Of a stretch of DNA of 64,000 bases, positions 5,953 to 59,758 are shown piece by piece. The notes below the pieces were generated by a model, which saw nothing but the letters and a program-made list of their open reading frames with translations, made no database searches and was not told where the DNA came from. Position 1 is the first letter of the stretch; each line of letters begins with the position of its first letter. The DNA is from Pseudolabrys sp. FHR47 (GTDB lineage Bacteria > Pseudomonadota > Alphaproteobacteria > Rhizobiales > Xanthobacteraceae), in contig NZ_CP039740.1 in the NCBI RefSeq assembly GCF_005153485.1, positions 868,001-932,000 of the forward strand. The letters run 5' to 3'. Made by a program: the position numbers and the translations under genes.

Positions 5953-6028
5953 GCCCAGGTAGCTCAGTTGGTAGAGCATGCGATTGAAAATCGCAGTGTC
6001 GGTGGTTCGATCCCGCCCCTGGGCACCA
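5953..6028 (+). tRNA. tRNA-Phe (GAA)
   Basis: A 76-base cloverleaf can be folded by eye. The acceptor stem GCCCAGG pairs with CCTGGGC, the discriminator is A and the terminal CCA is encoded. D arm GCTC AGTTGGTA GAGC; anticodon arm TGCGA-TTGAAAA-TCGCA with anticodon GAA; variable region GTGTC; T arm GGTGG-TTCGATC-CCGCC. All stems pair fully, with one G·U in the T stem. Confidence 0.97.
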
Positions 6029-57810: not shown

Positions 57811-58515
57811 ATGAGCGCGCGAATCCTGATCGTCGAAGATGAAGAGCCTCTCACGATGCTCCTCGTCTACAATCTCGAGAAGGAAGGCTACGAGGTCGAG
57901 ACCGCGGCCCGCGGCGACGACGCCGACACCAAGCTGAAAGAGCGCGTGCCGGACCTCGTGGTGCTGGACTGGATGCTGCCCGGCCTGTCCGGCATCGAAC
58001 TATGCCGCCGGCTGCGGGCGCGGCCGGAGACGCAGAACCTGCCGATCATCATGCTGACCGCGCGCGGCGAGGAGAGCGAGAAAATCCGCGGCCTCGCCAC
58101 CGGCGCCGACGATTACATCGTCAAGCCGTTCTCGGTGCCGGAATTGCTCGCCCGCGTGCGCGCGCTGCTCCGCCGCGCTCATCCCGACCGCGTCGCCACC
58201 GTGCTTAATATCGGCGATATCGAACTCGACCGCGAGAAGAAGCGGGTATCGCGCAGCGGCAAGCCGATCGATCTCGGCCCCACCGAATACCGCCTGCTGG
58301 AGTTCCTGATGGAGCGTCCCGGCCGCGTGTTCTCGCGCGAGCAGTTGCTCGATGGCGTCTGGGGTTCGGACATCTATATCGACGAGCGCACCGTCGACGT
58401 TCATGTCGGCCGCTTGCGCAAGGCTATCAACCGCGGCCAGCAGGCCGACCCGATCCGTACCGTGCGCGGCGCCGGCTACGCGCTCGACGATCGGTTCGGA
58501 CGAGTGGCGAGTTAG
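57811..58515 (+). CDS. phoB: Phosphate regulon response regulator PhoB
   Basis: 234 residues, OmpR-type. Receiver: acidic pair in VEDEEP, phospho-acceptor Asp53 in VVLDWMLPG, Lys in VKPFS. C-terminal winged helix: LGPTEYRLLEFLMERPGRVFS and ERTVDVHVGRLRKA. It binds Pho boxes such as the one before pstS. Last gene of the operon, 15 bases after phoU. Confidence 0.97.
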   Translation: MSARILIVEDEEPLTMLLVYNLEKEGYEVETAARGDDADTKLKERVPDLVVLDWMLPGLSGIELCRRLRARPETQNLPIIMLTARGEESEKIRGLATGADDYIVKPFSVPELLARVRALLRRAHPDRVATVLNIGDIELDREKKRVSRSGKPIDLGPTEYRLLEFLMERPGRVFSREQLLDGVWGSDIYIDERTVDVHVGRLRKAINRGQQADPIRTVRGAGYALDDRFGRVAS

Positions 58516-58585: not shown

Positions 58586-58660
58586 ATCGCCCGCGCAGGC
58601 GGGCGATCTAGCTCTTGGTCAGCCTTGAAAAGCGCTGGGTCCTCCGCTTGCGCGGAGGAC
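58586..58660. repeat. Pair of perfect palindromes after phoB
   Basis: ATCGCCCGC-GCAG-GCGGGCGAT at 58586-58607 and GTCCTCCGC-TTGC-GCGGAGGAC at 58639-58660, each with a nine-base-pair perfect stem and four-base loop. They look like mobile palindromic intergenic elements and could end phoB transcription. Confidence 0.75.
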
Positions 58661-58706
58661 GACGGGATTTGTCGTTCCGGGCTCCGGGCTTGCTAGAAAA
58701 TAGTCC

Positions 58707-58735
58707 TTGACTATTATTCCTAGAAGGACTATAAG
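58707..58735 (+). promoter_or_regulatory. Near-consensus sigma-70 promoter overlapped by a palindrome
   Basis: TTGACT (58707-58712), a 17-base spacer and TATAAG (58730-58735). A perfect inverted repeat ATAGTCCTT...AAGGACTAT (58700-58708 and 58724-58732, 15-base loop) overlays it as a possible operator. No coding gene follows on the same strand; a structured segment does. Confidence 0.75.
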
Positions 58736-58741
58736 CACTCC

Positions 58742-59110
58742 TGTCCTGTTCCGGCCGGGGGCGCTGTCATGAGGCGTCGTTTCAGTGGGAGCAGGGCGCG
58801 GTGCCCGCGGGTCTGGCGAAACGCACGCCAGGCGCTCGGGCGGCGACGGGGCTCCGCCCGCCGGCAATAAGACCGGCCGCAAGGAGCTTGCTGATGGTGA
58901 GCGCTACCTGCTGAAAGGCAGATCAGCCGCCAGAAGCGCGGCCCGTGTGCCGTAAGACACCGCGATGGAGCGCCGCGGGGCGCAGGTTCTCCGCGTTATG
59001 GAGAACCGCGCACCGCAAGGTGCGAAATCAAAGAGCGTCTCGCGGCGCTCCATCCCTCCGGCTTGGCCGGAGGGCCGAAGGGGAAGGCAGGCCGCCCCGG
59101 GCCTTCAAAG
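58742..59110 (+). ncRNA. Putative structured non-coding RNA (start near 58742, 3' end uncertain)
   Basis: Region of 754 bases between phoB and gcrA without a convincing gene. Downstream of the promoter at 58707-58735 a three-way junction folds by eye: closing stem 58964-58983 with 59035-59054 (14 Watson–Crick pairs plus six more with three G·U), hairpin 58985-58992 with 59000-59007 (loop GCGTTAT), and hairpin CGCACC-GCAA-GGTGCG 59009-59024 with a GNRA loop. A nine-pair hairpin CCCTCCGGC/GCCGGAGGG follows at 59054-59074, and a 5' hairpin GCTGAT/ATCAGC lies at 58890-58927. No match to RNase P, tmRNA, 6S or SRP RNA motifs is seen. No U-run end is found, so the 3' end is a guess. Confidence 0.55.
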
Positions 59111-59215
59111 AACAGGGGCGATCAGGCACGTCTGCTGTTTGAAAATTGAATCGGAAAGGCGCGGCACGTCACACGCGCTTTCTGATCCCTCCCCGAAGGC
59201 GGGGAAGGGATAAGC

Positions 59216-59243
59216 AAAAAAAGCCGGAGCGTCGCTCCGGCTT
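59216..59243 (-). terminator. Rho-independent terminator of gcrA
   Basis: On the minus strand a ten-base-pair stem AAGCCGGAGC/GCTCCGGCTT with a three-base loop is followed by a U-run (A-run 59216-59220 on the plus strand). It lies 27 bases after the gcrA stop. It may also block the rightward transcript weakly. Confidence 0.85.
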
Positions 59244-59269
59244 TCATCAATCCAGTATCGTCTTTGCAG

Positions 59270-59758
59270 TCAGCCTCTGAATGCCGGCTTGTGGCGGCGG
59301 CGATCATTGGCCGGCTGGAAGGCGACGCGGCAGTGGAAGCTGCAATAAGGCTGGTCTTCGGCGGCTTCACCGCCGCAGAAGAAGAAATCCGGACCTGACG
59401 GATCGCCCACGGGCCAGCGGCAGGTCTTCTCGTTGAGCTGCAGCAGGGTCTTGCGCTGCTCGAGCGGGATTTCCAGAAGCTCGGGCTCGGGCTCGACCTC
59501 GTAGTCGTAGGCCAGCGCGGTATTGCCGCGCACCTGCGGCCGTTGCACCCGGATCATGTGGCCGGACGAGCGAGCCTTGCGCGGGCGCGGCGTGCTCGAG
59601 GACGGGCTCTTGGCCCGCCCGGACAGGCCGAGGCGGTGAACCTTGCCGATCACGGCGTTTCTTGTGATGCCGCCAAGCTCGGCGGCAATCTGGCTGGCCG
59701 ACAGACCGTCGGACCAGAGCTTTTTCAGGAGTTCGACCCGCTCATCGGTCCAGCTCAT
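59270..59758 (-). CDS. gcrA: Cell cycle regulator GcrA
   Basis: 162 residues. N-terminal helix-turn-helix TDERVELLKKLWSDGLS and ITRNAVIGKVHRLGLSGR; C-terminal sigma-70-binding part with TCRWPVGDP and zinc-like cysteines in FFFCGG and PYCSFHCRVAF. GcrA is an alphaproteobacterial factor that binds RNA polymerase and methylated GANTC sites to drive S-phase genes. Ends at a strong terminator. Confidence 0.95.
   Translation of the reverse strand: MSWTDERVELLKKLWSDGLSASQIAAELGGITRNAVIGKVHRLGLSGRAKSPSSSTPRPRKARSSGHMIRVQRPQVRGNTALAYDYEVEPEPELLEIPLEQRKTLLQLNEKTCRWPVGDPSGPDFFFCGGEAAEDQPYCSFHCRVAFQPANDRRRHKPAFRG

Follow-up and report, generated by a model that had tools for sequence, protein, structure and literature searches.

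The window analysed here, a stretch of 64,000 nucleotides from Pseudolabrys sp. FHR47 (contig NZ_CP039740.1, positions 868,001 to 932,000), contains a unit made of a promoter and a predicted structured RNA. The unit lies between a phoB-like response regulator gene, which ends at 58515, and gcrA (59270-59758), which is on the minus strand and converges on it. The first-pass annotation of this DNA had described a near-ideal sigma-70 promoter with no gene after it, overlaid by a perfect 9-bp palindrome, and all three observations were confirmed. The features of the unit, in window coordinates, are the following:

58695..59152, plus strand: whole unit, promoter and structured RNA (edges from the alignment of 13 copies and the 3' motif)
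58700..58732, no strand assigned: perfect 9-bp palindrome over the promoter, arms ATAGTCCTT (58700-58708) and AAGGACTAT (58724-58732), read from the sequence
58707..58735, plus strand: sigma-70-like promoter, TTGACT (58707-58712), 17 bases, TATAAG (58730-58735), from the sequence and family scoring
58744..58797, plus strand: 5' domain, with P1 (58744-58752 and 58788-58797) as its closing helix, from pairing over 90 sequences
58762..58787, plus strand: helix P2 (58762-58766 with 58783-58787) and its loop, from covariation
58767..58772, plus strand: loop hexamer UCAUGA, self-complementary and the putative site of kissing, from the palindrome over the units
58773..58778, plus strand: near-invariant GGCGUC beside the palindrome, which could form an alternative helix with 58760-58765
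58798..58963, plus strand: multibranched middle domain, closing helix GCGGTG/CACCGC (58798-58803 paired to 58958-58963), from covariation
58860..58877, plus strand: hairpin GCCGGC-AAUAA-GACCGGC, from covariation
58964..59054, plus strand: three-way junction, from folding and closing-helix covariation
59055..59073, plus strand: hairpin after the junction, weak (73% paired against 69% in shuffles)
59110..59119, plus strand: conserved 3' sequence GAACAGGGGC, kept in the copies
59135..59150, plus strand: 3'-terminal motif CTGTTTGAAAATTGAA, from 8 genome occurrences

The promoter was compared over 107 related units, none of them from the pattern scan described below (106 of the genus plus L051, the G050 unit that appears as L311 in the distant set). 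A score of at least 8 of 12 was obtained upstream in 92 of these units, against 19.9% of shuffles, and in 84 of the 92 the -10 element ends 6-12 bases before the P1 region, with promoter sequences that differ from unit to unit. A simple promoter scanner that accepts only T as the final base of the -10 element missed the TTGACT/TATAAG pair and reported an overlapping site. The arms of the promoter palindrome co-vary in several copies of the own genome (AGTCC/GGAC and AATCC/GGAT, for example). Inverted arms of at least 6 bases with spacers of up to 8 were counted in 19 of the 107 units (7% of shuffles); since this setting is blind to palindromes spaced as in the window copy, the count was repeated with spacers of up to 20, giving 26 units for arms of at least 6 bases (13.3% of shuffles), 14 for at least 7 (2.9%) and 8 for at least 8 (0.7%). 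The palindrome is strong in the window copy and, across the family, a real but minority feature. The distant units L314, L315, L317, L319, L322, L327, L328 and L336 have in common a different sequence upstream, of the (C/T)TTATCCCC type and in some of them followed by TTACAATG, which is perhaps another promoter class. The segment 58540-58690, between phoB and the unit, contains REP-like hairpins, among them TCATTCCGGGGC, similar to the published Br-REP2 consensus (PMC5082802).

The suggestion that the RNA belongs to a multicopy class was borne out. Thirteen near-full copies of the promoter-plus-RNA unit, the window copy and 12 others, were found together with some fragments in the 4.5-Mb genome of the strain, the sister copies being 74-89% identical, and further copies occur across the genus. 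In the alignment of the 13 copies a sharp 5' start at (C/T)AGAAAATA (58695) was observed in 12, and the 3' end was located near GCGCGTC, followed in several copies by CTGTTTGANAATTGAA. The 3'-terminal motif, allowing up to one mismatch, occurs 8 times genome-wide, and all 8 occurrences are at the 3' ends of such units. The idea that CTGTTTGANAATTGAA is an rRNA leader boxA was considered and dropped, all 8 genome occurrences lying at unit ends; a 16S search of the own genome found no 16S, and the rRNA operon was thus not seen. One locus (L020:4666-4744) is a truncated unit, consisting only of the promoter and the first half of the 5' hairpin. The own copies L012, L019 and L020 have in common a replacement of about 45 bases in one hairpin (CACGCGCAAACAAG...CTGCTATG), which appears to be a sign of module exchange.

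The annotation as a structured RNA that is non-coding and has a promoter of its own was supported by stem covariation, by the conserved placement of the promoter and by the lack of a coding signal. Indels among the own copies were not a multiple of three in 446 of 500 comparisons, and differences in 26 close pairs were distributed 490:451:453 by position, with no three-base rhythm. A gene for a small protein was rejected as a candidate, given that neither a conserved frame nor codon-biased substitutions were found. Folding of 58742-59134 gave a z of -5.96, none of 100 shuffles being as stable. In the proposed fold, a 5' hairpin domain is followed by a multibranched middle domain and then by a long helix that bears a three-way junction, and the RNA ends in a conserved 3' tail. 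The three-way junction recognized by eye in the first-pass annotation was found, with its A-rich strand, and so was its 6-pair hairpin with a GCAA tetraloop. The closing stem does have 20 pairs, but two G-U pairs were counted instead of three; the other hairpin has 9 pairs and not 8; and of the 370 bases from which the junction had been drawn it takes up no more than some 90, the rest folding too.

Homologues were aligned and their stems covary, the check that had been proposed for this fold. Alignment A2 comprised 90 of 106 non-redundant 5' domains; L048, L108, L199, L200, L216, L221 (second place), L231, L246, L263, L274, L276, L281, L283, L286, L292 and L301 were left out, mostly for a differing sequence after P1, a reason that does not apply to L292. 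A pattern scan that fixed UCAUGA and part of P2 supplied 31 of the 90 rows and 16 of the 78 full units, and since such rows are preselected for UCAUGA/P2 the counts were repeated on the remaining 59 rows and 62 full units. In A2, P1 and P2 together were paired in 91.4% of cells (78.5% in shuffles), with both-side changes in 220 cells, a number that 0 of 500 shuffles reached (60.9 +- 9.5); on the 59 rows the figures were 90.3% against 79.3%, with 134 both-side changes against a mean of 41.2 and a maximum of 62. When the two structures were slid along the alignment, pairing was 57% or less. P1 alone was 91.9% paired over the 90 sequences (89.6% in the 59 rows), with both-side changes in 7 of 8 pairs; where a row has one base more, as that of the window copy does, A2 shifts P1 by a column, so P1 is not favoured. 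P2 was paired in 90.5% of cells over the 90 rows and in 91.3% over the 59, where 45 both-side changes compare with a shuffled mean of 8.3 and a maximum of 25, its exchanges including CGCT/AGTG, CGTC/GACG, CGCC/GGCG and CGCG/CGCG.

Over the 78 full units, 11 of 13 consensus helices exceeded all 100 shuffles in both-side changes, and the same 11 did so when only the 62 units from outside the pattern scan were counted, in shuffles that ignore sequence relatedness and with a consensus fold derived from the same alignment as was tested. Both-side changes in helices 59116-59133 and 58760-58778 were within the shuffle range in both sets, and helices 59055-59073 and 59089-59103 were weakly supported over the 78. 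The helix closing the middle domain was 97% paired, with 34 both-side changes (shuffled mean 13, maximum 24). Hairpin 58860-58877 was also 97% paired, against 75% in shuffles, with 88 both-side changes against a mean of 22, and is exchanged wholesale for GGAGG/CCTCC in sister copies. The closing helix of the junction was 96% paired (89% in shuffles), with 99 both-side changes against a mean of 37; the two inner junction hairpins are absent from the family consensus fold.

No catalogued family was matched. Rfam 15 at gathering score, applied to the window and 8 own loci, returned only a tRNA elsewhere in the window, and at E values of up to 5 nothing credible was obtained over 58600-59250; Rfam contains the ROOL, GOLLD and OLE families. 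ARAGORN on the window and 6 own loci gave only tRNA-Phe at 5953-6028 and no tmRNA, so the earlier statement that the RNA does not resemble RNase P, tmRNA, 6S or SRP RNA agrees with both searches, and a relation to these or any other Rfam family was rejected. The kinship that had been suggested with the sRNAs of the Bradyrhizobium/Rhodopseudomonas lineage, reportedly the subject of a 2012 paper, was not supported: Rfam, which holds BjrC68, gave no credible match, and R1, a covariance model of the 5' domain, had no match in any of 14 listed large genomes of the Bradyrhizobium-sized genus g26, of the same family. A literature search for Pseudolabrys with sRNA or non-coding RNA found nothing, and no prior description was found among the matches listed, including the available parts of PMC8632094 and PMC2864571. 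No Rfam number is given for the Rhizobiales-1 motif, described in 2010; identity of the window RNA with it seems unlikely. The RNA family is apparently uncatalogued.

A DNA similarity search matched 28 of 35 other genomes of the genus and 1 of 24 from other families. R1 matched 38 of 43 Pseudolabrys genomes, with at least 10 matches per genome in 15 of the 43 (16 in the own genome, 23 at the highest). Across the order, matches were found in 17 of 397 sampled genomes including the own one, in 11 of 142 genera; the 16 outside the genus belong to 10 other genera, and 10 of them had more than one match, per-genome counts here being lower bounds since at most 11 candidates per genome were scored. 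No R1 match was found in 288 other genomes sampled over the class, the large searches having been run with strict filters at which weak matches may be lost. The UCAUGA pattern scan of genome contigs detected at least 120 stretches, and among the matches listed were Pseudolabrys, Pseudorhodoplanes, Bauldia litoralis, Microvirga solisilvae, Enterovirga rhinocerotis and many MAGs; the cultured strain Pseudolabrys sp. Root1462 is one of the carriers. Several draft contigs (L142, L145, L147, L150, L151 and L154) end inside or just after a unit, and draft-genome copy numbers are therefore probably underestimates. The family may be described as large (about 400-550 nt) structured non-coding RNAs of Hyphomicrobiales, of which the window unit would be one gene.

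The apical loop of the 5' domain carries the most informative sequence pattern. The loop hexamer is UCAUGA in 77 of the 107 units, UCUAGA in 16, UCGCGA in 10, UCCGGA in 1 and another sequence in 3, so that an in-register six-base palindrome is present in 104. In L106 it is CUGCAG, one base out of register, and the two true exceptions, L136 and L178, have a non-palindromic hexamer; these two are natural test cases, possibly decayed copies. These palindrome counts are not independent events, because copies share ancestry and recombine, and both the BLAST query and R1 are rich in UCAUGA. In the 62 full units that were not preselected, the central bases 58769-58770 were mutually complementary without exception (AU 45, UA 10, GC 6, CG 1), and at least 14 palindrome changes were counted on a tree of these units built without the 5' domain (16 on all 78), an approximate count because copies recombine. 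Outside the genus, 28 of the 75 R1 matches were read, representing 15 genomes and ten genera (L338 was left out, being the same place as L319); the palindrome was in register in 23 and within two bases in 27, and L336 has the four-base core only. Different palindromes occur in different copies of one genome in G050, G278, G182, G255 and G381.

Since adjacent bases are unable to pair within one chain, the complementary centre of the hexamer points to pairing between molecules, and its natural reading from the sequences would be loop-loop pairing of two identical RNA molecules. The geometry of the loop argues somewhat against it. The strand that precedes the palindrome can enter either P2 (CGCTG/CAGTG) or the alternative helix GGCGCT/GGCGTC; P2 is strongly covarying, and the alternative helix is 96.7% paired and hardly covaries. 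Under P2 the hexamer would lie in a loop of 15-16 bases, further from a classic kissing loop than the 7 bases predicted under the alternative helix. The latter could be a second conformer, with a possible switch between the two.

Palindromes in both promoter and loop, and the dispersed positions of the units, outside genes in the copies viewed, would also be expected of an element acting as DNA, with palindromes and hairpins serving as protein-binding or chromosome-organising sites and the RNA irrelevant. Self-complementarity is the sole constant of the loop site, and therefore no single DNA-binding protein explains the hexamer, which has no fixed sequence for such a protein to bind; the stems keep G-U pairs, disfavoured for DNA hairpins (the second P2 pair is G-U in 53 of 90 rows), and the spacing from promoter to P1 is kept. 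This explanation is consequently considered highly improbable. A somewhat better case, still an improbable one, can be made for trans-acting regulatory sRNAs in which the exposed UCAUGA-GGCGUC loop would be an mRNA-pairing seed with targets that differ by copy. The near-invariant loop, the own promoters and the many paralogues are like those of multicopy sRNA families. A target seed, however, needs no self-complementarity, yet this loop changes almost only among palindromes, and usual sRNAs are smaller and less structured than the body of the window RNA.

The dispersal of the units is real. The 10 neighbouring ORFs of 7 copies were unrelated genes, e.g., rpsB, H+-pyrophosphatase, glyS and transporters, and the phoB-gcrA gap is empty in G033 (about 100 bases); in G009 it is occupied by a full unit, in G026 and G032 by units that are diverged or partly sequenced, and in G028 a remnant can be made out by eye. 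Hairpins and promoters are exchanged between the own copies in the alignment of 13, and two paralogues of the own genome resemble the window copy more (87-89% identical) than the syntenic unit of G009 does (81%), which suggests gene conversion between copies. Scattering beside unrelated genes, a gap that is filled in some genomes and empty in another, and homogenised copies all speak for a selfish or passively spread repeat, multiplied by transposition or recombination, whose folded RNA aids the spread or merely results from it; moreover, motifs that occur in many copies with inconsistent orientation are by published practice marked as mobile or repeat candidates (PMC11109978). Against this, no terminal inverted or direct repeats of at least 10 bases were found in 58640-59220 of the window copy, flank words common to both sides reached at most 4-6 bases, with no clear target duplication (12 testable copies, edges uncertain), and none of the 10 neighbouring ORFs tested was a transposase. 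The window RNA had no match in phage and plasmid records at the sensitivity used, nor did the UCAUGA pattern in viral contigs, and covariation over many genera together with the kept promoter placement exceeds what a dead repeat would keep. As a full explanation it is unlikely, although the spread of the units may have a selfish component.

Additionally, searches with outlying fragments detected two more distant kinds of unit in the own genome: type B, with seven long copies and partial ones, and type C, at four places. By eye, both have promoter style and 3' end in common with the window family and differ in their middles. The long family B units are located as follows:

Family B units L085-L091, on C1: 4469999-4470699, 4250444-4250995, 1822118-1822661, 3802107-3802664, 2106304-2106828, 2893489-2894031 and 1209093-1209642

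These units are about 550 nt long and 86-91% identical, with a body unlike that of the window family. Four loops were read: L086 has GCTAGC, L085 and L091 have CTAG only, and L088 has none. The lack of a strict loop palindrome in family B, as read in these four, counts against the self-pairing reading. The units L332-L334 of other genera resemble the 3' half of family B by eye, yet carry palindromes.

On balance, we consider it fairly probable that the window RNA represents a new class of RNA, large, structured and encoded in many copies, whose molecules self-pair, are expressed from their own promoters and form a homodimer or a larger assembly. Each copy would be transcribed from its own sigma-70-like promoter, starting a few bases before P1; identical hexamers of two RNA molecules would then pair loop to loop, and whatever cellular role the RNA may have would, we infer, be exerted as a homodimer or larger self-assembly supplied by the many gene copies. 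More tentatively, and rather doubtfully, genomes of this group would each hold at least ten genes of self-assembling RNAs, and the palindrome could be an identity tag by which copies with UCAUGA, UCUAGA, UCGCGA and UCCGGA form separate self-recognising assemblies in the same cell, held apart by base-pairing and reshuffled by gene conversion between loci.

Among known systems, MITE/REP-type repeats are likewise dispersed, short and without a gene; they differ from the window unit, in which no terminal repeats were found and which has its own promoter and a large covarying fold. The BjrC/BjsR sRNAs and Br-REP elements of Bradyrhizobium are found in bacteria that belong to the same order as the window strain. 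Imperfect copies, 2-4 in number, are described for some BjsR RNAs, and the Br-REPs, unlike the window unit, are short palindromes (PMC5082802 and PMC4842269); the window unit has no above-chance Rfam match and R1 had no match in the 14 listed g26 genomes. In the sources as available, the retroviral dimer initiation site also has a palindrome in an apical loop, where it starts homodimerisation, with unrelated sequence and biology, whereas the palindrome of the window family takes at least five forms. Like OLE, GOLLD and ROOL, the window RNA is large, highly structured and non-coding, with putative oligomers, and as in OLE and GOLLD its symmetric loop switches between palindromes. Such palindrome covariation in OLE and GOLLD loops is the printed argument for homo-oligomeric kissing, together with cryo-EM structures (PMC12286853, section 8). 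The window family differs from all three in being unmatched in Rfam and in having many dispersed copies per genome, and from ROOL, described as encoded in prophages and phages, in that phage, plasmid and viral collections gave no match to it at the sensitivity used. A family of large structured RNAs present at least 10 times per genome in 15 of 43 genomes of its genus is thus unmatched in Rfam 15, and as a chromosomal multicopy system of non-pathogenic bacteria, with several natural loop alleles and two natural non-palindromic copies, it would make RNA self-recognition testable by simple mixing and by genetics. A member of no family tested, it would find its closest kind in the ornate homo-oligomeric RNAs, with which it has in common a large covarying structure and a symmetric loop that covaries as a palindrome.
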